A stretch of DNA of 34,305 nucleotides, from contig CACJUU010000018.1 in NCBI GenBank assembly GCA_902596605.1, positions 1-34,305 on the forward strand, in the 5' to 3' direction. The notes beneath the pieces are model-generated. The model was given only the letters and a program-made list of their open reading frames with translations, was not told where the DNA came from and did not search any database. Shown piece by piece: positions 1 to 21,343 of this stretch (the first letter of the stretch is position 1; each line of letters begins with the position of its first letter). The DNA is from an uncultured Alphaproteobacteria bacterium. Its GTDB lineage: Bacteria > Pseudomonadota > Alphaproteobacteria > Rhodobacterales > Rhodobacteraceae. Made by a program: the position numbers and the translations under genes.

Positions 1-566
1 TTAATGTCTGCCGCTATTGATGCCCCGAGATTTACTTGAGTATCTTCTATCGCGATGGCCTCGCATGGACTAACCCCAATTTTTTTGAGCGCGTTTTGAT
101 AAATTTCGGGATTTGGTTTTGGATGTAAGCAGTCTTTAGACGTAGTAATTATATCAAAGTCATTAAAGTTTACTTTATCTTCAAGTGCTTTAGATAACGA
201 CTTTATATTTGTCTCTGAAGTAGTTGTTATTAAACCAACTTTTAAATCACTTGCTTTGCTATGGTGAAATACTTCAACAAACTCAATCCGTGATATATCT
301 TCTTGCTCTATAAGTTCTGCGTAAATCTCTTCTTTAAGATTATGAATTTTATCAACCAAGTCTTCTGCTATGTTTGGTATTGTGAAATTTCTTATTCTAT
401 CTTTGCCGCCGGGGACTTTAAGCATTTCGCAATAGTTTGCTACGTTCCAGTAACAATCAATATTTAATCTTTTAAAAGCTAAATTGTAACTCCGTCTTTG
501 TATCTCAGAGGTTTCAGCAATTGTTCCGATAGACCCAAATAAGACTGCTTTTAAGTTTTTATTCAC
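1..566 (-). CDS. HAD-like (subfamily IA) protein lacking the nucleophile Asp, partial
   Basis: Reading leftward from a GTG at 566 gives 188 codons with no stop before the window edge, so the C-terminus is missing. The GTG is preceded by GGAGG six bases away, which decides the start because the nearby ATG runs straight into TGA. The fold reads as a HAD hydrolase of the beta-phosphoglucomutase/CbbY/phosphatase type: a start like AVLFGSIGTIAETSE, a motif II-like GLITTTSET, the motif III lysine in HPKPNPEIY and the motif IV acid in AIEDTQVN. Motif I should be DxDGT, but here it is GSIGT, so both the nucleophile and the general-acid aspartate are absent. It is the third gene of a leftward set after the NTF2-like and RraA-like genes. 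It may be a non-catalytic or repurposed HAD protein; I would not assign a phosphatase reaction. Confidence 0.75.
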   Translation of the reverse strand, partial: MNKNLKAVLFGSIGTIAETSEIQRRSYNLAFKRLNIDCYWNVANYCEMLKVPGGKDRIRNFTIPNIAEDLVDKIHNLKEEIYAELIEQEDISRIEFVEVFHHSKASDLKVGLITTTSETNIKSLSKALEDKVNFNDFDIITTSKDCLHPKPNPEIYQNALKKIGVSPCEAIAIEDTQVNLGASIAADI

Positions 567-603
567 TCCATACCTCCACTAAATTTTGTACCCCTTAACA
601 TTT

Positions 604-1299
604 TCATTTGATATCCCATGATGCCTGGAAAGCTTTTTTTAATTTCTCAATATTAAAATCTTTTTGTCTAGCCGCCTCCAAAATCGGAATCTCTTTCTTT
701 ACAACAAGGTCCAACGCATGAGGCAATGCATCCAAATGCTTTTTTGGCACTGTCATAGCTCCATGCTGGTCAGCATGTATAAAGTCTCCAGGCTTTATTT
801 CTAATCCTAATATATTTACAGGTGTGTCTAACTCAGTGATATGTACAAAGGCGTGACTAGGCCCTATGCTTCCCGCAATAACTTGATACCCAGAATCCAG
901 CATCCCTAAATCTCTTAGCAGTCCATTAGTAACAGTGCCTTTAATTTTCAATCCCTTATGTACAGCAACATTAAGCTCACCCCAAAAAGCTCCAATACAG
1001 TTAGGAAAGTCCGTGTCTTCTATAACGACTACAGGGTTTTTTTCGTTTTTGACGATATACTCGTAATATTCCATACGGATATTGTTAATATCTTTTTGAG
1101 ATTTGAGTGGGGGTGAAGAGGCACGTATTTTAGCCGTTTTTGCAAAACCAACAATGGGCTGGGTAGAATTTTGCGCTGTAACCATCGAGCTTTTAGTAAA
1201 CCCTATAGCGGATCTCGTGCCTAATATAACATCCATAGCATTACACATTGTTGGCGTATCATATTTAGAAGTTGTTTTAATAAGTTGATCAATATTCAT
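604..1299 (-). CDS. RraA / HMG-CHA aldolase family protein
   Basis: The 231-residue protein matches the RraA/menG-like fold, whose members include 4-hydroxy-4-methyl-2-oxoglutarate/4-carboxy-4-hydroxy-2-oxoadipate aldolase (divalent-metal class II, releases pyruvate) and the RNase E inhibitor RraA. Visible are FWGELN, then KGTVTNGLLRDL, with an acid-x20-Arg-Asp arrangement (E108, R129, D130) that I recall as the family signature. A C-terminal block follows: NILGLEIKPGDFIHADQHG then AMTVP. The catabolic neighbourhood favours an aldolase or decarboxylase-like role over RNase control, but the substrate cannot be read from sequence. It lies 31 bp after the NTF2-like gene and 37 bp before the HAD-like gene, in one probable - strand operon. 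The length is normal for the family. Confidence 0.8.
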   Translation of the reverse strand: MNIDQLIKTTSKYDTPTMCNAMDVILGTRSAIGFTKSSMVTAQNSTQPIVGFAKTAKIRASSPPLKSQKDINNIRMEYYEYIVKNEKNPVVVIEDTDFPNCIGAFWGELNVAVHKGLKIKGTVTNGLLRDLGMLDSGYQVIAGSIGPSHAFVHITELDTPVNILGLEIKPGDFIHADQHGAMTVPKKHLDALPHALDLVVKKEIPILEAARQKDFNIEKLKKAFQASWDIK

Positions 1300-1330
1300 T
1301 GTCTATTCTTTACCCAATTTTATGCTGCCA

Positions 1331-2329
1331 TCAAGGTGATATTTTCGTCGTCCTGTCCAATATGTCGATATCCTGCATCTTCCAAAAATGAAGAAGATCG
1401 ATGAATATCCAGTTTTCCTTAAGCTTCTTTCCTTCTCTCCTATAAATATCAATTACCCGCATATCGCCTCTTTTCCCTGTGGATGGCATCCCCATAAATC
1501 CTCCTGAATGGACCAACGAAAGATTTGGCCAACCAAAAAACCCTCCAAAAAATCCTTCTGTTATCCTACAAATATGCCCATTAAACTGGCGTTCCTTAAA
1601 ACTTTCTCGGAATGGTCTGCAGTGTTGCTCGGCATATCTTTCTATTGTATACGTGGCTCCTATACCTGATGGACCCCACCACAACATATCTTGGTGCCAG
1701 CTTTTTTTAAGCTCCTTTATTAATGAACCTCTATCAGTTGATTTCCAAACCTTTAGATCATCGATCATATCTTCAATAGCTTTTTTAGTTTTAATAGTTT
1801 CTGCCGCATCTTGATCTTCAAACAATAAACCATCATGTGATGACGGACCGGGTTGAACAAGATTAGCCCCTGTTTGATAATGGAAAGGGTATACCCCAGC
1901 TTGAGACATAAAGTGGGGAATATCAAAAAACATTGCTGTCTCCACGATTTTATTTGAAACTATTTTGTTGAATTCTGCATATCGTAGAAAAGTCAGTTTT
2001 TTATTTGGCGATATTTTTAGCCATGGTTTATCAAATAGACCCATAAAGTGTCCCATTGAAACAACCCAAACGCCCTCATGGCCAGGAATAGTATTAGCAC
2101 CTGCAAAAAAAATATCCATTCTGCGTGTTAAGGAGGAAAGACTTTTTTTTAATGGTTCCCAAAAGAGTTTGTATACAGTTTCTGAGTTATAAATTTCATT
2201 GAAGGGATGAAATCCACGCCATATGAGATCGTCAGAAACATATTTCTTGAACACAGATTTTGTTTCTGGCTCTTTGTCTAAAGCGTCATAAAAATCGAGT
2301 AGCACCTGTTTCTCAGACTGGAAATTCAT
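1331..2329 (-). CDS. two-domain NTF2/SnoaL-like protein A
   Basis: This 332-residue protein has two consecutive NTF2/SnoaL-like halves, about residues 1-135 and 195-325. Motifs are WWGPSGIGATYTIERY, FFGWPNLSLVH, GFMGMPSTG and a terminal KENWIFIDLLHFW. Those motifs recur in protein B at 7358-8413 ([33 protein letters not shown]), so the two are paralogues placed on opposite sides of the divergent promoter. The SnoaL-like fold is used by polyketide cyclases, ketosteroid isomerase and dehydratases, usually as small single domains. The reaction here is unknown; isomerase, dehydratase or lyase chemistry on the operon's intermediates is an inference. It is the first gene of the - strand operon. No good ribosome-binding site is visible before the ATG. 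Confidence 0.75.
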   Translation of the reverse strand: MNFQSEKQVLLDFYDALDKEPETKSVFKKYVSDDLIWRGFHPFNEIYNSETVYKLFWEPLKKSLSSLTRRMDIFFAGANTIPGHEGVWVVSMGHFMGLFDKPWLKISPNKKLTFLRYAEFNKIVSNKIVETAMFFDIPHFMSQAGVYPFHYQTGANLVQPGPSSHDGLLFEDQDAAETIKTKKAIEDMIDDLKVWKSTDRGSLIKELKKSWHQDMLWWGPSGIGATYTIERYAEQHCRPFRESFKERQFNGHICRITEGFFGGFFGWPNLSLVHSGGFMGMPSTGKRGDMRVIDIYRREGKKLKENWIFIDLLHFWKMQDIDILDRTTKISP

Positions 2330-2614
2330 ATAGGAAAAAAAAGTTTTAAAAAATCTCTATTTAGATTATCATCAAAAAATACATTTGCAAGCGTATGCAA
2401 TATTTATTCTATGGACTAAAATGATAATGTTTAAATATACAGAAAGCCCTATTAATGTATACCAGACTGAAGCTAATAAATTTCACCTAGATAATTTATT
2501 AAAATATACTAAATCTCAATATATTAAAATCCTTCATCCAGTTCACGGTTTTTATTACGTTTCCAATTCCATGGGCTCTCAAATATAGTGGGATTAAAAT
2601 TTTAAGGAGAAAAA
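2330..2614. promoter_or_regulatory. divergent control region between the two arms of the catabolic island
   Basis: These 285 bp separate the leftward NTF2-RraA-HAD set from the rightward transporter operon and must hold both promoters. The sequence is very AT-rich and contains one clear palindrome (2385-2400). For the leftward arm, TTGCAA within that palindrome followed 16 bp later by TAATCT would be a weak promoter, so a bound repressor would cover its -35 box. No strong rightward promoter was found by eye. The rightward leader is long, about 215 bp from palindrome to start codon, and ends in a good AAGGAG ribosome-binding site. The short open frames inside show no protein-like features. Confidence 0.5.
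2385..2400. promoter_or_regulatory. candidate LacI-family operator
   Basis: TTGCAAGCGTATGCAA is an imperfect palindrome of the form TTGCAnnCGnnTGCAA with a central CG, the usual shape of a LacI/GalR-family operator. It lies in the divergent gap, and a LacI-family gene is encoded in the operon it would control (9176-10189). Control of both arms by that regulator is inferred from position and symmetry only. Confidence 0.55.
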
Positions 2615-3829
2615 ATGAAACTTAAATCAATTATAGCAATACTAACTGCTACATTTATTTCAACAAGTGTGTGGGGTGGCCACCACGCTTGTGATTATAA
2701 AAACAAAGAAGAATTGACAATGCTTTCTAACAGTTACGATGCGTGGAAGGCAGTCACCAATGCTATGGCTTCGTGTGGGAACTTTACAGCAACACTTGAT
2801 AAAGATTTTCAGCAAAAGCATAGCGATGCTTTGGCGGCTAACCCATCTCTTTATGATATTGTAGGCATCTCTAATGGTTCCATCACGCCACTTATAAACG
2901 CTGGGACGGTAAGACCCTTAGACGATTTAGTAAAAAAGTATGGTTCTCAGTTGCTGCCAAACCAACTAATAAAGATTGATGGTAAAATTATGGCTATAGC
3001 AATGTCAGTAAATAACCAACATATGATGTATAGAGAAGATATTTTCAGCAAGCTTGGAATATCAGAGCCAAAAACTTGGAGTGATGTACTTTCTGCGGCA
3101 GAAAAAATCAAAGCATCCGGAATGGTTGAATACCCCTATGGAGGAGCATTCAAATCAGGATGGAATATCGCTGAGGAGTTTGTAAATATGTATTTAGGAA
3201 ATGGTGGATCGTTTTTTGGAAGTGGAAATGCTCCAGCTATAAATAATGCAATGGGTGTAAAATCACTGGAAACTTTAAAAAAGCTCACAGCATATATGGA
3301 TCCAGAATATCTAGCGTCCGACTCAACTTATGCTCAAAAGCAAATGCAACAAGAAAAAATAGCAATGGGCGTTTTATGGGCGACTAGAGCGGCAGCTATG
3401 GATAATGCGGAAGAAAGCAAAGTTGTCGGAAAGATCAAAATGGTGAGTGCTCCCATGGGGGACGCAAGACCAGCCTCAAGTTTATGGTGGGATGGAATAG
3501 CAATAGCCAAAAATATTTCAGATGCAGAAGCTGAAGCTGCTTTTCAGGTGATCATGGAAGGTATTGATAAAGAAATGGTGAAAGCTAACAATGATAAGGC
3601 GGTTTGGCTTATCGATGGCTATAAAGCCGGAAAATCTGCAATGGGCGCTAAAATGACCGCTGATAACGGTGCTGTACCCTATCCATCAGGAACAAGAATG
3701 GGTGCTATGCATGGGGCTCTTGGCACTGTAGTACCGGACTTTTTGACTGGAAAAAAGTCTGCCAAAGAAACTTTAGCGGCTATCGAAGATGCATATATTG
3801 CAAAGGCTAAAGAACAAGGCTTGATGTAA
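2615..3829 (+). CDS. ABC transporter solute-binding protein (carbohydrate type)
   Basis: A 404-residue periplasmic binding protein of the extracellular solute-binding family 1 (CUT1 sugar type). Residues 1-21 form a signal peptide ending near SVWG-GHH. The mature N-terminus has C26, and C54 follows, so a disulfide is possible; no lipobox is seen. Typical family stretches are YDIVGISNGSITPLINAG, the KTWSDVLSAAEKIK block and SLWWDGIAIAKN. AAGGAG lies a few bases upstream of the ATG, giving a strong start. It is the first gene of the rightward operon and is followed by a strong hairpin before the permeases. The ligand cannot be deduced; the downstream dehydrogenases and aldolase-like protein suggest a polyol, sugar acid or similar small hydroxylated compound. 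Confidence 0.88.
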   Translation: MKLKSIIAILTATFISTSVWGGHHACDYKNKEELTMLSNSYDAWKAVTNAMASCGNFTATLDKDFQQKHSDALAANPSLYDIVGISNGSITPLINAGTVRPLDDLVKKYGSQLLPNQLIKIDGKIMAIAMSVNNQHMMYREDIFSKLGISEPKTWSDVLSAAEKIKASGMVEYPYGGAFKSGWNIAEEFVNMYLGNGGSFFGSGNAPAINNAMGVKSLETLKKLTAYMDPEYLASDSTYAQKQMQQEKIAMGVLWATRAAAMDNAEESKVVGKIKMVSAPMGDARPASSLWWDGIAIAKNISDAEAEAAFQVIMEGIDKEMVKANNDKAVWLIDGYKAGKSAMGAKMTADNGAVPYPSGTRMGAMHGALGTVVPDFLTGKKSAKETLAAIEDAYIAKAKEQGLM

Positions 3830-3835
3830 TATATC

Positions 3836-3859
3836 TTGGGGGCTCACAAGAGCCCCCAA
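3836..3859 (+). terminator. intercistronic hairpin after the binding-protein gene
   Basis: TTGGGGGCTC, loop ACAA, GAGCCCCCAA: a perfect 10-bp GC-rich stem with a 4-nt loop, starting 7 bp after the stop codon. Only a weak T-rich tail (CCTTTCT) follows, and the permease start codon is 8 bp beyond the stem. It probably acts as a partial terminator or 3'-end stabiliser that keeps binding-protein mRNA above permease mRNA. Confidence 0.8.
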
Positions 3860-3866
3860 CCTTTCT

Positions 3867-4892
3867 ATGAAAAATAGAGATTTTATATTTTTTGTTGGCC
3901 CATCATTAGTGGCAATGTTTGTCTGCATTGCGATCCCTTTGATGTTTGTTCTAGAACAAAGCTTTTTTGTCAACAAAAAGGTATATAAAGAAGTAGAGGT
4001 TGAGTCTTGTGTTGCTGGTTTCACAGGCCAGATATGTAGCGTTGAGATGCAAACCAAACCACAACTAGATGAAAAGGGAGAAATTATCACTCAAAAAGAA
4101 TTTGTAGGTCTAGAGAGCTACGAGAGGCTCATTAATTTCGATGCAGTGAAGAAAGCTTTTTGGCAACAAAATTTTTTAGAGTTAGAAAATGTAAAGTTTT
4201 TTAGCGCTTTGCGTTTCACGGTAACTTTTTGTTTAATAACACTACCATTTGTAATTATTCTTGGGTTAGTTATTGCTTTAACGGTTAATAATTTATTATC
4301 ATCTCTAAAAGGCCCAATCATTTTCGTTTCTCTTTTGCCTTTTATAATTACACCAATAATCGGTGCATTATCCATTAGGTGGTTATTCGTTGGTGATGGA
4401 ATCATAACCGCATTCCTCGAATGGTTAACAAATTCGAATATTTCAATGTTTTCAAATTCTTGGACGCTTGAATTGATGATGATTTTATATCGTATTTGGC
4501 ATGTTTGTCCCTTTGCCTTCATTGTATTTTACGCAGGCTTGCAGACAATTAATAAAGAGATGCTTGAAAGTGCGATAGTAGATGGAGCAAATAGGTATCA
4601 TCGACTAAGATTTATAATAATCCCTCATTTAATGCCTCTCATAGTATTTGTATCACTTATCCATTTGATGGATAGTTATCGAGTTTTTGAGGAGATTATT
4701 GCCTTTTCTTCCGATGCATATGTTATTTCGCTACAATGGCTTACTTATGATTTTCTTAGGCTTGATGATACAGGTAATAGGTATATAAGTAGTGCTTCGG
4801 CAAGTTCAATTTTAACAATGATTGGAATATCTATTTTACTTTATCCTCTAATTAAAAAAACTTGGAATGACTACAGGGAGGGTAAATTATGA
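3867..4892 (+). CDS. ABC sugar permease, MalF-like
   Basis: A 341-residue inner-membrane permease of the CUT1 type. The cytoplasmic EAA loop that docks the ATPase is visible near residues 232-258 (MLESAIVDGANRYHRLRF then IIIPHLMP). The first membrane helix (about 8-33) is followed by a periplasmic segment of roughly 75 residues with two cysteines (C48, C57) before the helices resume near residue 115. This loop is longer than a minimal MalF-type six-helix core needs. The start codon lies only 8 bp after the hairpin. The stop codon overlaps the next permease by 4 bp (ATGA), as expected for a heterodimeric pair. No ATPase gene accompanies it. Confidence 0.88.
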   Translation: MKNRDFIFFVGPSLVAMFVCIAIPLMFVLEQSFFVNKKVYKEVEVESCVAGFTGQICSVEMQTKPQLDEKGEIITQKEFVGLESYERLINFDAVKKAFWQQNFLELENVKFFSALRFTVTFCLITLPFVIILGLVIALTVNNLLSSLKGPIIFVSLLPFIITPIIGALSIRWLFVGDGIITAFLEWLTNSNISMFSNSWTLELMMILYRIWHVCPFAFIVFYAGLQTINKEMLESAIVDGANRYHRLRFIIIPHLMPLIVFVSLIHLMDSYRVFEEIIAFSSDAYVISLQWLTYDFLRLDDTGNRYISSASASSILTMIGISILLYPLIKKTWNDYREGKL

Positions 4893-6031
4893 GTTTTTTA
4901 GATGCGTCAAATCAGCCATTTGCCCTAAAGGCATTCTCAACACTTTTTATACTCGTATGGTGTGTGATTGCCTGCTTCCCTCTTCTCTGGATAACAATAA
5001 TGAGTTTAAAATTGCCTTTAGATGCATTTGACTCGAATTTTTTCAATGTTTTGGTAGGACCGGTTACTTTACAACTTAAAAATGGAGTTTCTGTAGCTAG
5101 CATTCTAGCTATCTCTCTGTTTTCTATGTATTTTTATTCAAGACGTCAAAGGCTTCGGAATTATTTAAGAGCCTCAATCGGATATTCTGAAGATGTGACA
5201 TTGTTTTTGTTCATACTTTTACTATACATATTTTGTTGTATTTCCATTTCAATAATATTCAGTAAATTTTTTGATGCTTATTTAGGATTGTTTGGAGCAA
5301 AAATTTTTGGTTTTACGTTGGATCACTATCATGCAGTCTGGACAGAAAGAGGTTTTTCACTATTTTTTAAAAACTCTTTAATTGTGACCTCTGGAGTAGT
5401 TATTATTTCTTTATCATTGGGCACTCTTGCTGGGTATGGTCTTGCCAGAAAAGAAAGCTCAATTGCTTTTTGGATTCTGATTATTGCTCTAATATTTAGG
5501 GCTTTACCCCATTCGGTTCTGGTAGCGGGCTACTTACCATTTTTTATGAAATCAAATGCAATTTTATCACCAATTTTTGGAGAGTTCGCACCTATATTAT
5601 ACGGACAACCCTTGGCAGTAATCTTGGTCTTAGTTGCTATTAATCAACCATTTACAATCTGGCTTATGCGCTCATTTTTTCAAAATATACCAAAAGAGCT
5701 TGATGAAGCAGCAAGAATCGATGGATGTTCGCACTTTCAGGCCTTTCGAAAAATAATTATACCCGTCATGTGGCCCGGTGTTATAACAACCGGTTTATTT
5801 AGCTTCATGCTAGGTTATAACGACTATTTAGTATGTTCGCTATTATTAGATGGTCAAAACCAAACAATGGTGCCATCTATCACTGGGCTATTTAATAGAG
5901 ATACTAGTACGACTGATGAAATAGTTGCAATTGCAGCGGCGGTTTCTATAACCGCGCCTTTGTTTTTTATTGTTTTGATTTTCCAAAAACAGATAGTTAG
6001 TGGGTTAACAGCTGGTGCTGTTAAGGGATAA
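4889..6031 (+). CDS. ABC sugar permease, MalG-like, with extra hydrophobic insert
   Basis: A 380-residue permease partner. The EAA motif is clear (ELDEAARIDGCSHFQAFRK followed by IIIPVMWPG), and the C-terminus ends in the family-typical GLTAGAVKG. MalG-type proteins are usually near 280 residues. Here about 100 extra residues lie between helix 1 (about 16-38) and the conserved core that resumes near 160. That insert contains two additional strongly hydrophobic stretches, about 67-84 and 103-126, separated by the basic segment SRRQRLR. Two extra transmembrane helices are therefore likely. The gene overlaps the preceding permease and is followed 22 bp later by the dehydrogenase gene with its own AAGGAG site. 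Confidence 0.87.
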   Translation: MSFLDASNQPFALKAFSTLFILVWCVIACFPLLWITIMSLKLPLDAFDSNFFNVLVGPVTLQLKNGVSVASILAISLFSMYFYSRRQRLRNYLRASIGYSEDVTLFLFILLLYIFCCISISIIFSKFFDAYLGLFGAKIFGFTLDHYHAVWTERGFSLFFKNSLIVTSGVVIISLSLGTLAGYGLARKESSIAFWILIIALIFRALPHSVLVAGYLPFFMKSNAILSPIFGEFAPILYGQPLAVILVLVAINQPFTIWLMRSFFQNIPKELDEAARIDGCSHFQAFRKIIIPVMWPGVITTGLFSFMLGYNDYLVCSLLLDGQNQTMVPSITGLFNRDTSTTDEIVAIAAAVSITAPLFFIVLIFQKQIVSGLTAGAVKG

Positions 6032-6053
6032 TAATATTTTTAAGGAGTAAATA

Positions 6054-7361
6054 ATGGTTGATTTTTTAAAGAGAAGTAAACCCGAGGGTGAAAAATGGGA
6101 GGAGGATGAAAAAGTAAGAAAGTCTGTTGAAGAAATTTTAAGTAATATCGAGAAAAGAGGTGACTCAGCAATTAGGGAATTATCAAGGAAATTTGACAAC
6201 TTTTCTCCTGATTCTTTTCGTTTAAGTGAAGATGAAATAAGAAAGTGCATGGAAAAAGTGGACCAAAGGGATCTTGATGACATTATCTTTGCGCAAAAGC
6301 AAATACGGCGATTTGCAGAGGCTCAATTAGGTAGTATAAAAGATATAGAATTAGAGACTATGCCGGGAGTAATCCTAGGACATAGAAATATTCCAGTTCA
6401 GTCAGTGGGTTGTTATGTTCCGGGTGGTAAATTCCCAATGGTTGCATCTGCACATATGTCTGTTTTGACGGCATCGGTTGCTGGCGTGCCCAGAATAATT
6501 GCGTCGGCTCCACCCGTTAACGGAGAACCTCATCCAGCAATTGTTGCCGCTATGAAATTAGGAGGCGCTCATGAAATATATGTATTGGGTGGTATTCAGG
6601 CTGTTGCAGCTATGGCAATAGGAACGGAAAGCATAAAGCCCGTTGATATGTTGGTTGGACCCGGAAATGCTTTTGTTGCTGAGGCGAAAAGACAACTATT
6701 TGGAAGAGTCGGAATAGACTTATTTGCTGGTCCAACAGAAACAATGGTAATTGCTGATAATAGTGTTGACGCTGAAATGTGTGCAACGGATTTACTTGGT
6801 CAAGCGGAACATGGATATAATTCCCCCGCGTGTCTTATAACAAACTCCAAAAAACTAGCAGAGGATACTATTAGCGAAATTGAAAGACTTTTAAAAATAT
6901 TACCAACTTCCGAAACAGCGCGCGCTAGTTGGGATAATTATGGAGATATAATCTTGTGCTCAACACATGAAGAAATGTTGAATGTTGCTAATGATATGGC
7001 TTATGAGCACGTGCAAATTATGACTGATCGAGATGATTGGTATCTGAAAAACATGCATTCATATGGTGCTCTCTTTTTAGGACCAAGAACGAATGTAGCA
7101 AATGGAGATAAAGTAATCGGGACTAATCATACTTTGCCTACAAAAAAAGCAGGGAAGTATACAGGTGGACTTTGGGTAGGAAAATTCATCAAAACGCATA
7201 GCTATCAAAAAATCATCACAGATGAAGCTGCATCTTTTATAGGAGAGTATGGCTCCAGGCTTTGTATGTTAGAAGGCTTCGTTGGTCATGCAGAACAATG
7301 TAATGTGAGAGTAAGGCGGTATGGTGGAAAAAATGTGCCATATGGAGAAGCTGCTAAATGA
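6054..7361 (+). CDS. histidinol dehydrogenase-family alcohol dehydrogenase (HpsN-like)
   Basis: The 435-residue protein has the zinc-dependent NAD+ histidinol dehydrogenase fold, which oxidises a primary alcohol to a carboxylate in two steps. Family residues are present: zinc ligands Q250 and H253 in [12 protein letters not shown]352 in [14 protein letters not shown] and H412 in EGFVGHAEQ, plus the acid/base pair E318-H319 in AYEHVQIM. It is not in a his operon. From memory, the motifs [28 protein letters not shown] and KFIKTHSYQ resemble HpsN, the (R)-2,3-dihydroxypropane-1-sulfonate 3-dehydrogenase of roseobacters, more than biosynthetic HisD. No hpsO, hpsP or sulfolyase gene is in the window, so the substrate stays open. 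It overlaps the next gene by 4 bp. Confidence 0.82.
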
Positions 7362-8413
7362 TGTCTAATCAAAGATCGGCATTCTTAAAATCATTACTAG
7401 CACCATTATTTGAGGCGATGGGAGATTTTTCGCTTTCTCAAGTAAAACCTGAGTTGGAAAAAATATTTTCGCAAGATTGCCTCGTTCATATGTGTTTTCC
7501 ATTTAATGACATGCAGGGTTCTGATGCATTTTATACTAATTGCTTAGAAAAATTAAGCACAGCAGTTCCCGACCTCGAAAGAAGGAATTTAATTGTGCTA
7601 GCAGCAACAACAGAGCATGGTAATGAATGGGTTTCAACGATGGGTAATTATGTCGGTACATTTCAAGAGCAGTTTTTAGATATTTTTCCTACCGGACACC
7701 TTATGCATATGCGATTTCATGAATTCTTCAAATTTGAAGATCGGAATATTACTGAAGTGCAAGCTATTTGGGATATACCGGAGCTTATGATGATATCTAA
7801 TTCGTGGCCACTAGCCCCCCAATTAGGAAAATTTATTTTAACGCCATCCCCAGAAACAAACGATGGTATTTTCGTGTCAGGAGATGGAGCAAAAAATGAA
7901 CAGAAAATTAAAAACATGTTAACTGACTTATGCAGACATCCAGAGAACCCTGATCCAAAGGTGATGAATTTAGATCTTCACTGGCACCCAAATTTTAATT
8001 GGTATGGTCCTGCAGGGATAGGAACATGTCGAGGCATAGATGGCTTTAGAAACTGGCACCAAATCCCGTTTTTAAGAGGTATGCCAAACAGAAAAGTTGA
8101 CAAATCGTCCGATAAATTTTCGGATTGGGAAGCGCATACACACTGGATTAGTGAGGGTGATTATGTTTCAGAAACTGGTTGGCCGAACATGATCATGAAA
8201 TTAACCAATGATGGCTGGATGGGGATTCCGCCAGTAAACGAAGAAATTTTGTTAAGAAGTTTAGACTTTTGGCGTATTGGGAAAGATGGTCGTATAAAAG
8301 AAAATTGGGTTCTTGTCGACCTATTAGATATGTATAACCAAATAGGAGTTAACGTATTCGATAGAATGAGAGAGTTCAATAAGGCAAAAATATCTAGATC
8401 GGGGGCAACCTAA
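7358..8413 (+). CDS. two-domain NTF2/SnoaL-like protein B
   Basis: A 351-residue paralogue of the protein at 1331-2329. The N-terminal half runs to about residue 155 and the C-terminal half spans about 205-340. Shared blocks are [36 protein letters not shown], a [17 protein letters not shown] block and [13 protein letters not shown]. Histidines and acids recur in LHWHPNFNW and [12 protein letters not shown] and could line an active-site pocket. Members of this fold act as isomerases, cyclases or dehydratases, but this long two-domain subgroup is not one I can tie to a reaction. The start overlaps the dehydrogenase stop (ATGATG), so the two are probably translated together. Retention of both A and B suggests separate steps or a heteromer. 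Confidence 0.75.
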
Positions 8414-8414
8414 G

Positions 8415-9179
8415 ATGAACCTTCCTAAGACCCCTAGCTTTTCGCTTGCTAATAAAAACGCATTAGTGGTAGGAGCTTCTTCTGGGATAGGTCTTGCTTG
8501 TGCCGTGGCACTTGCAGACTATGGTGCTAAGGTAACTCTTGCTGCACGAAGAACAAAAAATATTAAAGAACTCGCAGAAAAATTGAATAAAAAAGGCTGT
8601 GATGCATCTATTTTGGATTTGGATATAAGTGATTTAGAAAATATTGAGGAAAATTTACTATCAAAAGGTCCTTATGATGTTTTGGTAAATTCAGCTGGAA
8701 TAGCGAAACATTCTTTATCAAAAAATACAAACGTTAGCGATTTTGATGAAGTACTAAATGTTAATTTAAAGGGGGCTTTTTTCTTAACACGGACTGTAGC
8801 TAACCAATTACTTAAAGACAAGAAATCCGGCTCGCTTATAAATATTTCATCCCAGATGGGTATTGTAGGTGGTTTAGAGAGATCTGTTTATTGTGCATCA
8901 AAGCATGCGGTAGAAGGATTTACCAAAGCAATGGCAATAGAATATGGACCATATGGAATTAGAATTAACACTATTTGCCCTACTTTTATTTTAACTGAGT
9001 TAACTCGTTCCACTTTTGAGGATGCAAAAAAAAGAAAATGGATAGAGGAAAAAATTAAACTAGGAAGAGTTGGGAAAGTTGAAGATATAATGGGTGCAGT
9101 TATTTACCTTGCGTCAGATGCCTCTTCATTAGTCACTGGTTCTGCTTTGATGGTAGATGGAGGATGGACCGCTGAATGA
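8415..9179 (+). CDS. short-chain dehydrogenase/reductase (SDR)
   Basis: A classical SDR of 254 residues. The cofactor motif is GASSGIG at 20-26, the structural motif is NSAG at 92-95, and the catalytic set is S146, Y159 and K163 (YCASK). The C-terminus ends with the usual VTGSALMVDGGW. The AARR after the second beta strand suggests NADP(H) could bind, but cofactor preference is uncertain. A likely role is oxidation or reduction of a secondary alcohol/ketone intermediate, complementing the HpsN-like enzyme. It starts 2 bp after the NTF2-like gene and overlaps the LacI gene by 4 bp. Confidence 0.9.
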   Translation: MNLPKTPSFSLANKNALVVGASSGIGLACAVALADYGAKVTLAARRTKNIKELAEKLNKKGCDASILDLDISDLENIEENLLSKGPYDVLVNSAGIAKHSLSKNTNVSDFDEVLNVNLKGAFFLTRTVANQLLKDKKSGSLINISSQMGIVGGLERSVYCASKHAVEGFTKAMAIEYGPYGIRINTICPTFILTELTRSTFEDAKKRKWIEEKIKLGRVGKVEDIMGAVIYLASDASSLVTGSALMVDGGWTAE

Positions 9180-10189
9180 AAATTAATAAGATAACTTCTG
9201 CACAAGTTGCAAAATTAGCTGGAGTTTCCCAATCAGCTGTAAGTAGGGTATTTACTCCCGGAGCATCCGTCTCTATTAAGACCACCAAAAAAGTAAAAGA
9301 AGCCGCTTTAAGCCTAGGATATCGACCCAACTCAATTGCTAGAGCTATGGTATCCGGAAAAAGTCGAATGATCGGTGTAGTCGTAGCATACTTAGAAAAT
9401 CAGTTCTATCCTGAGGCGCTAGAACGCCTCTCGAATTGTCTTCAGGAGAAAGGATATCATGTGTTGATTTTTATGGCGGGTAAAGACAGGCAAAGTATAG
9501 ATAACGTAATCGAAGAAATTTTGGACTATCAAGTAGATGGAATAATTGCAGCATCAGTGTCAATGTCCTCTGGTCTATCCGAAAGATGCCGTGCTGCTGG
9601 TGTACCCATGGTTTTATTTAATAGAGCTCAAGACGATCCAAATATGTCAGCCATCACCTCTGATAACATAGAGGGTGGTAAAAAAATTGCAAAATTCTTA
9701 ATTAGTTCTGGTCATAAGAAGATTAGTTACATAGCAGGATGGGAAGGTGCATCTACTCAAAGAGACCGCGAAGCTGGTTTTATATCTATACTCAATGATG
9801 CTGGACTATCTTTACATAGTAGGAAAGTAGGTAATTTTGTATTTGAAGATTCTAGAGAAGCTACAAGATCAATGTTCTTTAATAATACTCCTGAGGCGGT
9901 ATTTGTAGCTAACGATCATATGGCCTTCGCGGTTATGGATACCCTCAGATATGAGCTTGGACTAAAAATCCCTGACGATGTATCAGTTGTGGGTTACGAC
10001 GACGTTCCGGCTGCATCTTGGCCCTCATATTTACTAACAACTGTCCAACAGCCAGTAAATATCATGGTTAGAGAGACTGTAGAGATACTGATTGAAAAAA
10101 TAGAAAATCCCGAGGCGAGACCTCAAAAAATTAAGGTTGATGGACCGCTTATTTTAAGAAAATCAGCCAAAATTCATAAAGGAAATTAA
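9176..10189 (+). CDS. LacI-family transcriptional regulator
   Basis: A 337-residue LacI/GalR regulator. The helix-turn-helix is near the N-terminus (SAQVAKLAGVSQSAVSRVF, residues 8-26), followed by a hinge block YRPNSIARAMVSGKSRMIG and a periplasmic-binding-protein-like effector domain with VDGIIAASVSM, FVANDHMAFAVMDTLR and VVGYDDVPAASWPSYLLTT. The gene sits inside the operon, overlapping the SDR by 4 bp and ending 2 bp before the next NTF2-like gene, which suggests autoregulation. The central-CG palindrome at 2385-2400 is the best visible target. The inducer is probably the transported compound or an early intermediate, by inference. Confidence 0.93.
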   Translation: MKINKITSAQVAKLAGVSQSAVSRVFTPGASVSIKTTKKVKEAALSLGYRPNSIARAMVSGKSRMIGVVVAYLENQFYPEALERLSNCLQEKGYHVLIFMAGKDRQSIDNVIEEILDYQVDGIIAASVSMSSGLSERCRAAGVPMVLFNRAQDDPNMSAITSDNIEGGKKIAKFLISSGHKKISYIAGWEGASTQRDREAGFISILNDAGLSLHSRKVGNFVFEDSREATRSMFFNNTPEAVFVANDHMAFAVMDTLRYELGLKIPDDVSVVGYDDVPAASWPSYLLTTVQQPVNIMVRETVEILIEKIENPEARPQKIKVDGPLILRKSAKIHKGN

Positions 10190-10191
10190 TA

Positions 10192-11157
10192 ATGAAGGGC
10201 TTTGCAGAGAAATGGAAAGACTTACCAGAATATATATTGGGAATTACTAAAGAAATTTGGGAAGATAGGGGTATTGATACATTAAATCATTATTACACTA
10301 AAGATATTCCCATGCGGTTTCCTGAAGGTATTTCTATCGGCAATCAAAATACGATTAATGGAACCTTAGCAACTTTATCTGAATTTCCAGATAGACAATT
10401 AACCGGAGAAGATGTGATTTGGAGTGGAGATGATGAAACTGGTTTTTTATCTTCACACCGCTTATTAACGATGGGAACTCACCTGGGTAATGGCTATTTT
10501 GGTAAAGCAACTGGTAAGCGTTTTGTAATAAGAGCGATTGCAGATTGTTCCGCTATAAATAATCAGATAAATGATGAATGGTTAATCAGAGACACTGCTG
10601 GGATTGTTAAACAATTAGGAATGGACCCCAAAAAATTTGCAATAGACTTAATTGAAAGAGAGGGGGGTCCAGAAAATTGTATCAAGCCCTTTTCTCCATC
10701 AATAGATGTAAAGGGTCCTTACAGAGGCACTGGTAATGATAATGAGTGGGGCCAGAAGTTAAGTGATATCCTTTCTGGAATTATGCAAAAAAACTACTCT
10801 ATTATCCACAAAGAATACGATCGAGCTGTTCAAACCGAACATCCTGGAAGCACTACAGTGCATTCCTGGGCTGATACTGAATTTTTATGGATGGGGCTGA
10901 GATCGTCTTTTCCAAATGCAACATTTAAACTAGAGCATGTTATTGGCAGGGAAGACCCTATGCTTTCGCCAAGAGCGGCTGTCCGTTGGAGTTTAAGTGG
11001 TAAACACGAAGGTTGGGGTATGTTCGACGAACCCAGTGGTGCGGAGGTATACATTATGGGATTTACCCACGCCGAATTTGGTCCTTATGGATTAAGAAAG
11101 GAATTTACTCTTTTTGATCCAGTTTCAATTTGGAAACAAATATATATGCAAAAATAA
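10192..11157 (+). CDS. two-domain NTF2/SnoaL-like protein C
   Basis: A 321-residue protein with two NTF2/SnoaL-like halves, about residues 15-150 and 190-320. It is a different subgroup from proteins A and B. Its hallmark blocks are SSHRLLTMGTHLGNGYFG, SPRAAVRWSLSGKHEGWG, GAEVYIMGFTHAEFGPYG and the end DPVSIWKQI. The pattern AVRWSLxGxH...GxxFxxPxG...IMGxxHAxF is one I associate with uncharacterised NTF2-family proteins of marine alphaproteobacteria. The function is unknown. It is the third such gene in 11 kb, between the regulator and the bicupin. It starts 2 bp after the regulator stop and probably depends on translational coupling. Confidence 0.7.
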   Translation: MKGFAEKWKDLPEYILGITKEIWEDRGIDTLNHYYTKDIPMRFPEGISIGNQNTINGTLATLSEFPDRQLTGEDVIWSGDDETGFLSSHRLLTMGTHLGNGYFGKATGKRFVIRAIADCSAINNQINDEWLIRDTAGIVKQLGMDPKKFAIDLIEREGGPENCIKPFSPSIDVKGPYRGTGNDNEWGQKLSDILSGIMQKNYSIIHKEYDRAVQTEHPGSTTVHSWADTEFLWMGLRSSFPNATFKLEHVIGREDPMLSPRAAVRWSLSGKHEGWGMFDEPSGAEVYIMGFTHAEFGPYGLRKEFTLFDPVSIWKQIYMQK

Positions 11158-11187
11158 ATTTTATATTGGTAAAAAAAAGGAGAACTT

Positions 11188-12153
11188 ATGTCTCAGTTAG
11201 ATATCGAAAGCAGAATTATACGTTATGGTGAACTTATACCTTGTAAAACAGCCTTTATTGACGCCCATACACCAGGATCTGACCAAAAGGAAAACTTTAC
11301 TATTATAGGTGCGGGTGTTTCTGAGAGCCCAGATCAACACGTCCATCTTGCCCTTCCTCATGGATTTAATATTGGGGCTGCTGGGCAACCACCAAAATGT
11401 AGGAATTCGCTCCATAGTCACAGAACTGCTGAGGTATTTTTTGTATTGAAGGGAAGATGGCGCTTTTTTTGGGGTCGTTGGGGTACTGCGGGTGAGGTTG
11501 TTCTTCAAGAAGGAGACATTATTAATATTCCCACAGGAATTTTTAGGGGTTTTGAAAATATAGGGAATGACTATGGGATGATTATGGCAATTTTAGGGGG
11601 TGATGATGCCGGAGGAGGTGTCATTTGGGCTCCACAAGTTTTAGAGGACGCAAAAAATCATGGGCTCGTGTTGTCCGAAAAAGGTAAACTCTATGACACA
11701 AAAAAAGGTGAAAGCTTACCGGATAATATGAACCCAATGCCTTCACTAACAGAGAAAGAGTTATCTGAATTTCCAGAGCTAAAAGGGGATGATATTATTG
11801 CCAATCATGTTGCAAGATATTTAGACCTTTTATCTTTATCTAAAGATAATCCTGCTAAAGTTATTGGTGAAAAAGCTAAACTGGTAGACAAGCCAGGATT
11901 TGAAGTTGAATTTCTTTCTAGAAATTCACTTTCAAACACCCCTCAAAAATCAAATAAAATAAATGTTTTGATGCCCGTTAAGGGTCATTGGAAGTTCTTT
12001 TCCAATACTTTTAAAACAGTTTTAAATCCTGGCGACACTTTTTCTGTGCCAGAAGATCTAGATTATACATTAGAACCATCAATGACCGGTGAAAGTGGTT
12101 TATACAGGGTAATCCCTACAGACGATCCAGCTGGTGCAACATGGAGACCATAA
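11188..12153 (+). CDS. bicupin-domain protein
   Basis: A 321-residue protein with two cupin barrels. In the first, cupin motif 1 is present with H76, H78 and E82 (SLHSHRTAEVFFVLKGRW). Motif 2 (EGDIINIPTGIFRGFEN) has R120 where the fourth metal ligand is normally His. The second barrel (about 260-320) contains VKGHWKFFSNTF and LNPGDTFSVPEDLDYTLEP without the His/Glu ligands, so it is probably structural. Cupins of this size include dioxygenases, isomerases and sugar-binding proteins; the altered ligand set makes a specific assignment unsafe. An AAGGAG site precedes the ATG. The stop codon TAA is followed one base later by the GTG of the alkyltransferase-like gene. Confidence 0.82.
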   Translation: MSQLDIESRIIRYGELIPCKTAFIDAHTPGSDQKENFTIIGAGVSESPDQHVHLALPHGFNIGAAGQPPKCRNSLHSHRTAEVFFVLKGRWRFFWGRWGTAGEVVLQEGDIINIPTGIFRGFENIGNDYGMIMAILGGDDAGGGVIWAPQVLEDAKNHGLVLSEKGKLYDTKKGESLPDNMNPMPSLTEKELSEFPELKGDDIIANHVARYLDLLSLSKDNPAKVIGEKAKLVDKPGFEVEFLSRNSLSNTPQKSNKINVLMPVKGHWKFFSNTFKTVLNPGDTFSVPEDLDYTLEPSMTGESGLYRVIPTDDPAGATWRP

Positions 12154-12154
12154 A

Positions 12155-13276
12155 GTGAAAATACTAACAACACACGTAGGATCTCTTCCTAGATCTCAAA
12201 AAGTCGTAGATTTTATTTTTGCTAGAGAAAAAAATGAACCTTTTTCAATAGATGAATTTGATGACGTTATGAAGAAAGCAGTTGAAGCGACTGTAAAGAA
12301 ACAGAAAGATTCTGGTATTGATATAGTCTCTGATGGAGAAACAAGTAAAATTTCCTATGCTACATATGTCAAAGATAGGTATACAGGGTTTGATGGCGAT
12401 AGTCCAAGGAATGCACCTCAAGACTTGGAATTATTTCCACAATATTTAAAAAAGTTAGCCGATGACGGTGGAACCCCCCAGTACGCTCGTCCGATGTGTG
12501 TGGGTGAGGTAAAATCAAAAGAAAATAATGAACTCCAAAAAGACATAAAAAACCTAAAGTCGGCTATGAAAGTTAATAATGTTGAAAGAGGCTTTATGAA
12601 CGCTGCTTCACCTGGAGTTATTTCTCTTTTTCTTCAAAATGATTACTATCCTAGTAGAGAAAAATACCTTGAGGCCTTAGCTGAAGTAATGAAACAAGAA
12701 TATGATGCAATAGTTGCTGAAGGTCTCACGCTACAACTTGATTGTCCTGATTTAGCATTGTCTCGACATATGCTATTTAATGATCTATCCGATGAAAATT
12801 TTATTAAAATTGCGAACCTCCATGTGGAAGCACTGAATCATGCTTTAAGAGACATTCCTTCAGAAAAAATTAGAGTTCACATCTGTTGGGGAAACTATGA
12901 GGGTCCGCATGTTTGCGATATTTCAATGAAAAAAATGTTTGATACACTTATGTCGTCAAAAGCACAGTACTTACTTTTTGAAACCTCCAATCCAAGGCAT
13001 GCCCACGAATGGCAAATTTTTCAAGAGCGAAAGAATGATATTCCGGACAACAAAATACTTGTACCTGGATGCTTAGATTCTACTACGAACTTTGTTGAGC
13101 ATCCGATGCTTGTTGCTGAAAGAATAAATAAGTTCGTGAATATTGTAGGACACGACCGTGTAATTGGTGGCACGGATTGCGGTTTTGGTACATTTGCTGG
13201 ATTTGGAGCTGTAGATCCAGACATCGCCTATGCAAAGCTGAAATCATTAGCAGAGGGTGCGTCACTAGTAAAATGA
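12155..13276 (+). CDS. MetE-like zinc-dependent alkyltransferase (cobalamin-independent methionine synthase II family)
   Basis: A 373-residue protein equivalent to the C-terminal catalytic half of MetE. It opens with TTHVGSLPRS, and the zinc ligands are in place: H242 and C244 (VHICWGNYEG), E276 (LLFETSNP) and C342 (GGTDCGFGTF). Stand-alone proteins of this type include methylcobalamin:CoM and epoxyalkane:CoM transferases and various thiol alkyl/methyltransferases; full-length MetE is about twice as long. In this operon it most likely moves a methyl or other alkyl group to or from a thiol, perhaps demethylating the substrate, but donor and acceptor are unknown. I chose the GTG at 12155. An in-frame GTG at 12134 would only add seven residues overlapping the bicupin gene. 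Confidence 0.83.
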   Translation: MKILTTHVGSLPRSQKVVDFIFAREKNEPFSIDEFDDVMKKAVEATVKKQKDSGIDIVSDGETSKISYATYVKDRYTGFDGDSPRNAPQDLELFPQYLKKLADDGGTPQYARPMCVGEVKSKENNELQKDIKNLKSAMKVNNVERGFMNAASPGVISLFLQNDYYPSREKYLEALAEVMKQEYDAIVAEGLTLQLDCPDLALSRHMLFNDLSDENFIKIANLHVEALNHALRDIPSEKIRVHICWGNYEGPHVCDISMKKMFDTLMSSKAQYLLFETSNPRHAHEWQIFQERKNDIPDNKILVPGCLDSTTNFVEHPMLVAERINKFVNIVGHDRVIGGTDCGFGTFAGFGAVDPDIAYAKLKSLAEGASLVK

Positions 13277-13971
13277 AGCCATTTATCGTTCTTATACCAG
13301 GAATGATGTGCAATCGTGATGTTTTTTCATTTCAAATCAATGCGTTAGAACCATTTTTTAATGTTGTAGTTAAAGAGTTTAATGAATATAGTGATATTGA
13401 GTTGGGTGTTAAAAATTTAGTTTCAAATTTACCGAGCAAATTTCATCTTCTTGGGCATTCCATGGGAGGCATTGTTGCTATGGAATTTGTCAAGCAACAT
13501 AGTGAAAGAGTGCTCTCTTTAGTACTTCTAAATACTAACCCCTATGAAGAAAAACAGGAGATAAAGGACAGAAGAAATATAATACTTAAAGAGTTGGATG
13601 CATTAGATTTAATTACGTTAATGAAATCTGACTATATATCTCGATACTTTCCTGATGACTGCAGAGATAAAAATATACTAATTCAAAAATGTGTTGATAT
13701 GGCATCTACACTGGATAAAAAAGTGTTTTATCATCAATCTATTTCACTCAGAGACCGAAAGGATCAAACGGCCATTTTAGAAAACCTTAATTGCAAAACG
13801 CTACTTGTATGTGGTGAACGTGACAAAATGTGCCCTGTCTCCTATCATTCTGATATGAATAAAATGATAAAAAGTTCTGATCTTATAGTTTTGGAGGGCG
13901 TAGGTCACATGCCAACGCTTGAGTGCCCTCAAAAATTAAATAATCATTTAAAAAACTTTTTCTCCAATTAA
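13273..13971 (+). CDS. alpha/beta-fold hydrolase
   Basis: A 232-residue hydrolase with a standard triad: S63 in the nucleophile elbow GHSMGG, D184 in CGERDKMCP and H212 in GVGHMPTLE. The oxyanion-hole region is IPGMMCN. Members of this size include enol-lactonases, carboxylesterases and C-C hydrolases. Its place at the end of the operon suggests hydrolysis of an ester, lactone or thioester intermediate. The ATG at 13273 overlaps the previous stop (ATGA). The frame is open for another 96 bases upstream, but that extension would lie wholly inside the alkyltransferase gene. No terminator is evident before glk 42 bp downstream, so read-through into the glucoside region is possible. Confidence 0.87.
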   Translation: MKPFIVLIPGMMCNRDVFSFQINALEPFFNVVVKEFNEYSDIELGVKNLVSNLPSKFHLLGHSMGGIVAMEFVKQHSERVLSLVLLNTNPYEEKQEIKDRRNIILKELDALDLITLMKSDYISRYFPDDCRDKNILIQKCVDMASTLDKKVFYHQSISLRDRKDQTAILENLNCKTLLVCGERDKMCPVSYHSDMNKMIKSSDLIVLEGVGHMPTLECPQKLNNHLKNFFSN

Positions 13972-14013: not shown

Positions 14014-15018
14014 TTGAAGCTATTAGTTGCTGACATTGGCGGAACGAATGCACGCTTTGGATACCAGGAAAATAACAAATCCGAAATAAAGCATATTGAG
14101 TTCCTAAATTGTATTGATTTTTCAAATATCGGCAACGCTATGGCTCACTATGTTTCTAAAAATAGACTAAATATTGAGAATTTATCTTTATCTATAGCAG
14201 GGCCCTGTGGCGATAATTTCGTGAAATTTACAAACAATCACTGGTCTTTTGATAAAAGAGATCTTTTAAACGAGACTAATTGCAATAGTTTGTTAGCCAT
14301 AAATGATTTTGCTGCGCAGGGATTAGGTTTTACAAACCTCTTCAGTTCTTCAAACTTTTTAGATAAAAAGATACTTGATCAGCACAAACTTACTTTATTA
14401 AACCACGGAAAATCTTTAGATGGGACAAATGTACTTATAACTGGTCCTGGGACCGGGTTAGGGGTTGGAACACTAGTTTTTATAGATAATATTCCTTTGC
14501 CAATTCAAGGAGAGGGCGGTAACGTCCACTTTTCGCCCGCGACTAACGAAGAAATAAACCTATTAGAGTGGTTATCTAAAAAGGTTGATTATGTTTCAAC
14601 AGAAGAAGTTCTGAGTGGTAGAGGTCTTGTGAATATTTATAATTATCTTTGCTTTAAAGAAAATCATACCTCTGAAATGTCTTCTGCAGATCAAATTGGG
14701 CTTGCTGCAAAGGATGGTAATATATTAGCTAGAAATGCTGCTAGGCTTATGGTCGAAATTTTTGCAACGTCTATTGCAAACAATATTCTTGTAACTGGAA
14801 GTCAAAAATGCGTAATTATTTGTGGTGGAATATCAGCAAAACTATCTGAAGTCTTTAATGATAGCATGTTTCATGACAGGCTCCGTAATAAAGGAAAATA
14901 CAAAAATTACGTTTCAGATGTACCTATTCTATTGTCGTTTGACGAAAACAATGGCTTGAAGGGATCAGCAGAAGCCTTCTACAGCCCATTTTTTCAAAGA
15001 CAAAAAGTTTCTATTTAA
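14014..15018 (+). CDS. glk: glucokinase
   Basis: A 334-residue glucokinase of the bacterial Glk family, ATP + glucose to glucose-6-phosphate, cytoplasmic. It starts with the phosphate-binding ADIGGTNARFGY, has the catalytic base D98 in AINDFAAQGLG, and shows the nucleotide-site loops TGPGTGLGVG and CGGISAKL. It lacks the ROK CXCGXXGCXE zinc motif. The start is a TTG with an excellent AGGGGG site (14003-14008) five bases upstream. The product would trap glucose released by the GH4 and GH1 enzymes nearby. The 3' end overlaps the convergent GH1 gene by 8 bp. Confidence 0.92.
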   Translation: MKLLVADIGGTNARFGYQENNKSEIKHIEFLNCIDFSNIGNAMAHYVSKNRLNIENLSLSIAGPCGDNFVKFTNNHWSFDKRDLLNETNCNSLLAINDFAAQGLGFTNLFSSSNFLDKKILDQHKLTLLNHGKSLDGTNVLITGPGTGLGVGTLVFIDNIPLPIQGEGGNVHFSPATNEEINLLEWLSKKVDYVSTEEVLSGRGLVNIYNYLCFKENHTSEMSSADQIGLAAKDGNILARNAARLMVEIFATSIANNILVTGSQKCVIICGGISAKLSEVFNDSMFHDRLRNKGKYKNYVSDVPILLSFDENNGLKGSAEAFYSPFFQRQKVSI

Positions 15019-17832: not shown

Positions 17833-17850
17833 ATCGCTCGTTAAAATTTT

Positions 17851-17875
17851 AGAGGCGGTTTTTTTAACCGCCTCT
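17851..17875 (+). terminator. intercistronic hairpin after aglE
   Basis: AGAGGCGGTT, loop TTTTT, AACCGCCTCT: a perfect 10-bp stem starting 18 bp after the aglE stop codon, with a short TCTT tail. As at 3836-3859, it stands between the binding-protein gene and the first permease gene, and probably limits permease expression or protects the aglE message. Confidence 0.8.
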
Positions 17876-17895
17876 TCTTATTAATCACCAGAAAA

Positions 17896-20015: not shown

Positions 20016-20017
20016 GA

Positions 20018-21334: not shown

Positions 21335-21343
21335 GTAGCAAGC

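Follow-up and report, generated by a model that had tools for sequence, protein, structure and literature searches.

RraA-fold aldolases act on tertiary alcohols such as 4-carboxy-4-hydroxy-2-oxoadipate (CHA), and in aromatic catabolism the CHA/4-hydroxy-4-methyl-2-oxoglutarate (HMG) aldolases carry out such a step. Acid sugars are degraded through OtnK, OtnC and OtnI, and salicylate 1,2-dioxygenase and quercetinase share a double-cupin fold. In the catabolism of the sulfonate 2,3-dihydroxypropane-1-sulfonate (DHPS; HpsN/HpsO), a HisD-family four-electron alcohol dehydrogenase is paired with a short-chain dehydrogenase/reductase (SDR), as described in the available text of two papers (PMC11382572, PMC11131964). 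We compared with these systems a gene cluster at positions 1-13,971 of an alphaproteobacterial contig (CACJUU010000018.1, family Rhodobacteraceae), whose full 34,305 bases (37% G+C) we call the window; the source genome comprises 1.97 Mb in 48 contigs and is 84% complete. Like the DHPS clusters, the locus pairs a HisD-type dehydrogenase with an SDR, but it adds a bicupin, a hydrolase, an aldolase-like protein and NTF2 proteins, and its HisD lacks the sulfonate-recognizing His126. Its RraA protein has the fold and Arg-Asp motif of the CHA/HMG aldolases and a proposed retro-aldol cleavage of a tertiary alcohol to pyruvate in common with them, but scores below curated cut-offs and would act on a substrate with CH2OH in place of a carboxylate. 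A sister form of the cluster (loci L105, L107, L108, L191, L227 and L228) ends in OtnK and OtnC, whereas the window has HisD and SDR and no kinase. The bicupin resembles the double-cupin dioxygenases in fold but has His-His-Glu plus Arg instead of the usual third metal His.

We propose that LacI controls this locus as a catabolic regulon, whose substrate would be a ring compound of the C7-cyclitol type, most likely 4-deoxygadusol set free from mycosporines or mycosporine-like amino acids (MAAs); to this reading we assign a probability of roughly 0.38. The gene set itself is real, widespread and co-regulated, and we consider it very likely that it serves one pathway. The pathway is apparently undescribed: the initial annotation, made from the sequence of the window, knew of none with these genes, and a literature search that barely reached subscription papers and did not reach preprints found neither a description of the gene set nor genes for MAA breakdown.

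Searching a bicupin alignment against a named genome collection gave 575 confirmed relatives, and we analyzed the best 80 (the best-80 loci), which lean to Alphaproteobacteria and of which 56 have full flanks. Each of nine families was scored from its best BLAST match, which had to exceed 70 bits, rather than by curated models. Repeated co-occurrence of at least six families had been suggested in the initial annotation as support for one pathway; at least six of the nine were present in 59 of these best 80 of 575 relatives; among the 56 with full flanks, 43 reached this number. Among the best-80 loci we found LacI in 67, NTF2_C in 62, HisD in 59, SDR in 57, MetE in 56, the importer ATPase in 53, NTF2_B and RraA in 46 each, the hydrolase in 41 and HpcH in 6. 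These loci span Rhodobacterales, SAR116, Rhizobiales and Geminicoccaceae, and the set also occurs, with rearranged gene order, in Klebsiella, Pantoea, Deinococcus and Priestia. The loci share ancestry, with L105 and L191, and L227 and L228, forming close pairs, so that Fisher values over them serve as description only. In the single cell AG-426-E23 (uncultured Alphaproteobacteria), a cluster resembling that of the window (L111) includes a bicupin with 97% identity to the window protein. When the class was surveyed with NTF2 protein B, 19 of 240 genomes gave a match, the window's genome among them and two of the matches being weak; many of the neighborhoods examined repeat the gene order of the window. 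The MetE-like gene was present in 12 of the 21 other genomes of the window's genus and the bicupin in 25 of 398 sampled genomes of its phylum, where 29 matches comprised 26 examined regions, the window, L065 and L068. Among plasmids, 61 records had a cupin match; 18 were opened and, with Marinovum, gave 19 loci hand-picked for diversity.

A predicted LacI-type operator, TTGCAAGCGTATGCAA, sits as an exact match between the divergent operons of the window, where 1.46 sites are expected by chance with two mismatches allowed, a figure that does not extend to exact matches. The core TGCANNCGNNTGCA was found at 72 sites, spread over 48 of the 96 loci in which LacI identity is at least 50%; 20 mononucleotide shuffles gave 1.95 on average. 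The 96 include five hand-added loci, namely the window and four from its genus. A few of the 72 sites fall inside genes, and these may be chance. Another 26 occurrences lie in the remaining 54 loci, which likewise contain cupin or NTF2 genes. In Novosphingobium (L106) the operator is found at three separate promoters, one upstream of a HisD-SDR-HpcH-amidase operon, which links this operon with the genes for the cupin, hydrolase and NTF2 proteins, and the kinase-type locus of Ensifer (L108) has three sites in two intergenic regions. The long form TTGCANNCGNNTGCAA has one site genome-wide in the window's genome and the reversed pattern none, and a scan of the window for perfect CG-centered palindromes gave no lead. 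In nine other genomes searched, long-form sites also lie elsewhere, often as TTGCAACCGGTTGCAA, and one each in G455 and G628 has none of the core families nearby; TTGCAACCGGTTGCAA sites outside the cluster are perhaps another regulator's. In G154, G365, G455, G626 and G628, paired TTGCAACCGGTTGCAA sites stand 4 to 5 kb apart, away from the cluster, resembling another LacI-type regulon. The predicted operator adds regulatory evidence for one regulon, and together with co-occurrence it supports the earlier proposal of a single LacI-controlled locus serving one pathway.

The core of the system is the bicupin, the alpha/beta hydrolase and a pyruvate aldolase. An HpcH/HpaI-family aldolase was found in 11 of the 19 plasmid loci (Klebsiella, Vibrio, Novosphingobium, Thioclava, Ensifer, Priestia, Salinivibrio, Pantoea, Roseomonas, Rhizorhabdus and Deinococcus), an assignment confirmed with models for four of them. 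Over 125 loci, 22 had HpcH only, 59 RraA only, five both and 39 neither. This exchange of RraA for a pyruvate-aldolase family supports an aldolase role for RraA, and with it the aldol cleavage to pyruvate that ended the pathway outlined in the initial annotation. Arg129-Asp130 of the window RraA, which we take to be the active-site pair of RraA-fold HMG/CHA aldolases, is conserved across 46 relatives; against the curated ligK_PcmE equivalog the protein scored 18.4 bits, with a cut-off of 304.5. The RraA protein of L101 weakly matched CHA aldolase 3noj in a PDB search (E 4.2e-5), and the Arg-Asp pair was aligned through it.

HisD and SDR occurred together in 78 of the 125 loci, HisD alone in ten, SDR alone in seven and neither in 30. 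The 3-oxo-tetronate kinase OtnK was present in six, those of the sister form named above. Each of these six also has the cupin, HpcH and the hydrolase and lacks HisD, SDR and RraA; an NTF2 gene occurs in a single one. The Thioclava OtnK clears the curated 3-oxo-tetronate kinase model (534 bits, cut-off 350). No dehydrogenase is among the annotated cluster genes of the kinase loci L105, L107, L108 and L191, which would leave the core trio itself as the source of the keto acid. G626 and G628 each carry one locus of either type (L250 with L228, and L251 with L227). Because the two modules never share a locus, HisD/SDR and the kinase look like alternative ends of one chemistry. In L146 and L163 the cupin and RraA stand with NTF2_D and an importer, with no HisD or OtnK; in L146 an Ldh_2-type dehydrogenase and a PfkB kinase follow, a possible third finishing module.

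If the trio yields pyruvate (C3) and 3-oxo-tetronate (C4), its ring-opened precursor would be a seven-carbon acid whose tertiary alcohol carries CH2OH. Cleavage of a C7-cyclitol 1,3-diketone produces this kind of skeleton, which suggests a substrate of the gadusol type. The structures of gadusol and 4-deoxygadusol are known; gadusol has one extra hydroxyl, and its aldol cleavage would give 3-oxo-tetronate, which would explain OtnK and a decarboxylase in loci lacking HisD. The chemistry needed for 1,3-diketone cleavage is that of the diketone dioxygenase Dke1, and in a Dke1-type reaction a methoxy group between two carbonyls becomes a methyl ester on dioxygenolysis, which would give the hydrolase a task. 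The available text of a review states that mycosporine-glycine is hydrolyzed to a beta-diketone and that bacteria form 4-deoxygadusol from MAAs (PMC3083659). According to the accessible parts of that review and a second source (PMC7828830), algae, cyanobacteria and fungi make such sunscreen compounds. A mycosporine or gadusol is our tentative choice of substrate.

We envisage the following order of steps, the outline of which we consider an even bet. After ABC import, the NTF2/SnoaL proteins may prepare the ring, for instance by hydrolyzing the enaminone that holds the amino acid. The bicupin, with O2, would cleave the 2-methoxy-1,3-diketone to a carboxylate and an alpha-keto methyl ester, from which the alpha/beta hydrolase would remove the methyl group. 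The RraA-like aldolase would then split the tertiary alcohol into pyruvate and 4-hydroxy-3-oxobutanoate, which the SDR could reduce to 3,4-dihydroxybutanoate, the carboxylate analogue of DHPS; the HpsN-like HisD would oxidize its primary alcohol to give malate. In the kinase form, gadusol would yield pyruvate and 3-oxo-tetronate, and OtnK and OtnC would lead on to dihydroxyacetone phosphate. The alcohol oxidation that came first in the initial outline is here replaced by ring and aldol cleavage, with the dehydrogenases finishing the C4 product. We also considered HisD acting on the ring CH2OH before cleavage, leading through CHA to oxaloacetate, but prefer SDR and HisD after cleavage because this order uses the SDR and parallels OtnK/OtnC.

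For the proposed ring cleavage the bicupin offers metal ligands of the motif-1 form HxH(x3)E (His76, His78 and Glu82, all invariant). Its structural model (mean predicted local distance difference test score, pLDDT, of 80, with residues 18-51 poor) had salicylate 1,2-dioxygenase and quercetinase as its top PDB fold matches, at a template modeling (TM) score of about 0.5 and a root-mean-square deviation of about 10 Å. A PDB sequence search with the bicupin gave no convincing match, the best (0.0015) covering the metal motif only.

Several observations weigh against our proposal. No result ties any of the genes to a mycosporine or names the substrate. Cupins usually have a third metal His at the motif-2 position, where the bicupin has Arg120, which does not vary in sets of 19 and of 42 sequences; its fold is also matched by oxalate decarboxylases and seed storage proteins. 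The window RraA had no match to CHA aldolase 3noj at E 0.01 in a PDB sequence search, and the best scores of the hydrolase were to enol-lactonase models, below their cut-offs. A direct 3-oxo-tetronate product does not account for OtnI (2-oxo-tetronate isomerase), which is found in five of the six kinase loci. The scheme also gives no firm role to the three NTF2 proteins, MetE and the HAD protein, and three loci (L155, L182 and L187) have the cupin without other cluster genes. In L155 (4495-10969) and L187 the bicupin follows an SBP_bac_5-type (peptide/Opp-like) importer and a GNAT acetyltransferase; the lone bicupin of L182 (9940-10966) has a TGCANNCGNNTGCA site 28 bases upstream and adjoins a glycosyltransferase and a sulfotransferase. 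In L141 and in two shorter loci, L126 and L147, RraA or MetE accompanies the cupin but HisD is missing.

The same machinery could instead serve another ring substrate, such as a different C7 cyclitol, a quinate- or shikimate-type acid or another plant or algal ring compound, which we consider unlikely, if a serious contender. Cleavage would then give pyruvate and, for example, a C4 semialdehyde, taken on by OtnI in the kinase form or by HisD in the window form. An aldehyde product would account for the frequent OtnI, and the set is found in soil and plant-associated bacteria as well, but the hydrolase and SDR would be left without a clear task, and the Ensifer locus L108 has OtnK and OtnC with no OtnI in the examined stretch.

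We hold it distinctly unlikely that the substrate is a linear sugar, sugar acid or polyol carrying a methyl or other substituent, which MetE would dealkylate and SDR and HisD oxidize before the aldolase released pyruvate. This scheme, close to the initial outline, fits the sugar-type importer and LacI, and the MetE-like protein has kept its zinc ligands: His249, Cys251, Glu283 and Cys349, presumably the His, Cys, Glu, Cys pattern of MetE, are conserved in 56 relatives. However, it gives no obvious need for a bicupin with a ring-dioxygenase-like fold, and kinase-type clusters operate without HisD or SDR. Moreover, several clusters that look otherwise complete (L099, L100, L101 and L103) are without MetE. 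The alkyl removal outlined in the initial annotation is therefore unlikely to be central, and we rejected MetE-driven demethylation as the core. MetE was not seen in 24 of the best-80 loci, in some because of contig ends. The window protein scores 101.9 bits against the curated methionine synthase equivalog, whose cut-off is 406. A small gene resembling an S-adenosylmethionine (SAM)-dependent methyltransferase lies beside the cupin and MetE in 14 of the best-80 loci, among them L110 (15963-16565).

That the pathway consumes a sulfonate, with HisD acting as a DHPS 3-dehydrogenase, is very improbable. HpsN is indeed the nearest solved relative of the window HisD (373 bits, compared with 266 to the best histidinol dehydrogenase), and PMC11131964 describes DHPS clusters in which HpsN likewise comes with an SDR. 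His126, which recognizes the sulfonate and marks DHPS dehydrogenases in the accessible part of PMC11382572, is however Met129 in the alignment of the window protein. Among 102 HisD-type hits in the scanned loci, 83 have the corresponding KFPM motif, 12 have KYPL and one has the HpsN-like RYSH. The absence of His126 makes a sulfonate substrate unlikely, and we dropped the DHPS pathway, and with it the sulfonates named as candidates in the initial annotation, on this test; no sulfolactate lyase was among the families of the window, the rest of the genome not having been searched for one. The catalytic Glu318, His319 and Asp352 are kept, as is Lys353, a sulfonate contact in HpsN, which is present in 101 of the 102 hits. 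From these residues, an anionic non-sulfonate diol is a natural guess for the substrate: 3,4-dihydroxybutanoate is DHPS with a carboxylate for the sulfonate, and its oxidation product would be malate. A role in histidine biosynthesis was rejected, since nine of 22 same-genus genomes encode another HisD that scores better (E 1e-149 or lower); both copies are present in G247, and the window's own incomplete genome shows the window copy alone.

That independent genes merely lie together by chance is scarcely credible: the clusters do vary, and in 21 of the best-80 loci the count stays below six of nine families, in part owing to contig ends, but the set recurs with changed order in distant phyla and shares an operator. 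On reasoning alone we also rejected ascorbate cleavage, which gives the aldolase no role, and pantothenate, prompted by the amidase in some clusters, which gives none to the cupin and hydrolase.

Both halves of the NTF2 proteins have the NTF2 fold, by structural model for protein C and by Pfam only for proteins A and B. The model of protein C (pLDDT 96.6) had as its first match the tandem epoxide hydrolase Lsd19, followed by single-domain SnoaL-type cyclases; the Lsd19 TM score is low, about 0.35, because either the two halves differ in orientation or the match is a loose one. Searching the PDB with the NTF2 sequences gave no lead. An amidase, present in seven of the best-80 loci, could, as speculation, hydrolyze a vinylogous amide. 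Comparing it with NTF2_B (at least 45% identity) over 125 loci gave both in one, the amidase only in 12, NTF2_B only in 55 and neither in 57, which is suggestive only. Amidase, a second HisD and NTF2_D tend to co-occur, mostly without an NTF2_B orthologue (L099, L100, L103, L106, L109, L115, L119, L125, L171, L172 and L183), and the second HisD is about 43% identical to that of the window in L100, L103 and L106. Such loci are possibly a subtype for a different conjugate.

The genes of the locus are listed in the table. All families named in the initial annotation were recovered by Pfam and NCBIfam assignment, each on the strand it had given, and the tight ATGA coupling it described is seen at 4889/4892, 7358/7361, 9176/9179 and 13273/13276. 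The hydrolase most likely starts at the last of these, at 13273, rather than at the mechanical TTG at 13177. The HAD protein does lack its nucleophile, with LFGSIG in place of DxD; GSI stands at this position in the window protein and in four homologues from the scanned loci (L062, L070, L168 and L184), so the loss is common to clusters of several lineages and is not a local mutation. Family assignment of the island genes found no importer ATPase within the island.

Table. Features of the locus, with positions in the window and supporting evidence.
Feature	Position	Strand	Support
HAD-like protein without nucleophile Asp, truncated by contig start	3-566	-	Pfam HAD_2 4.5e-15
RraA-like protein, proposed pyruvate aldolase	604-1299	-	Pfam RraA-like 9.7e-17; Arg129-Asp130 conserved; under all NCBIfam cut-offs
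Two-domain NTF2/SnoaL protein A	1331-2329	-	Pfam SnoaL 2e-10
Predicted LacI-type operator TTGCAAGCGTATGCAA	2385-2400		Exact match, between divergent operons
ABC importer solute-binding protein	2615-3829	+	Pfam SBP_bac_1 3e-21
ABC permease 1	3867-4892	+	Pfam BPD_transp_1 1.1e-5 (just under cut-off); position conserved in relatives
ABC permease 2	4889-6031	+	Pfam BPD_transp_1 6.5e-21
HisD-family dehydrogenase, HpsN nearest solved relative; proposed 3,4-dihydroxybutanoate to malate	6054-7361	+	
Two-domain NTF2/SnoaL protein B	7358-8413	+	Pfam SnoaL 6.5e-17
SDR, proposed 4-hydroxy-3-oxobutanoate reductase	8415-9179	+	Pfam adh_short_C2 5.6e-57
LacI-family regulator	9176-10189	+	Pfam LacI 4e-11, Peripla_BP_3 4.6e-30
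Two-domain NTF2/SnoaL protein C	10192-11157	+	Pfam SnoaL 1.4e-12; model pLDDT 96.6
Bicupin, proposed ring-cleaving dioxygenase	11188-12153	+	Pfam Cupin_2 1.8e-8; His76, His78, Glu82, Arg120 invariant; fold matches
Accessory zinc protein resembling the MetE catalytic domain (cobalamin-independent methionine synthase II type)	12134-13276	+	Pfam Meth_synt_2 2.9e-10; His249, Cys251, Glu283, Cys349 conserved
Alpha/beta hydrolase, proposed methyl esterase	13273-13971	+	Pfam Abhydrolase_1 1.2e-13 (query from 13264); Ser66, His215 conserved

A glucokinase gene starts 42 bases past the hydrolase and is followed by genes for a GH1 protein, a second ABC importer, a GH4 protein, an importer ATPase, a phosphofructokinase and a sugar dehydrogenase (14014-24535). 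In the same-genus loci L087, L089 and L090 the glucokinase remains beside the hydrolase and genes further out vary; L165 has GH1 inside the cluster. The glucokinase and GH1 neighbors perhaps point to glucosylated substrates. The remainder of the window (24539-34303) is ordinary by Pfam, with polyhydroxybutyrate genes (PhaR-like regulator, PhaC and depolymerase), a molybdenum hydroxylase pair and an adenylate/guanylate cyclase-domain protein.

The presence of the bicupin across the phylum sample and the retention of the set in a genome of about 2 Mb suggest that the substrate should be widely available. We tentatively read the island as the genetic basis of bacterial mycosporine/gadusol mineralization, in which a relative of HpsN would have been re-tuned from sulfonate to carboxylate and make malate. 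If this is true, the breakdown of these sunscreens gains genes, which no paper found by our search, with the reach given above, assigns. Whatever the substrate, the analysis yields a regulon defined by its operator and an order of enzymes that can be tested, and genes annotated as histidinol dehydrogenase, methionine synthase, ester cyclase or RraA in such clusters are probably misnamed.

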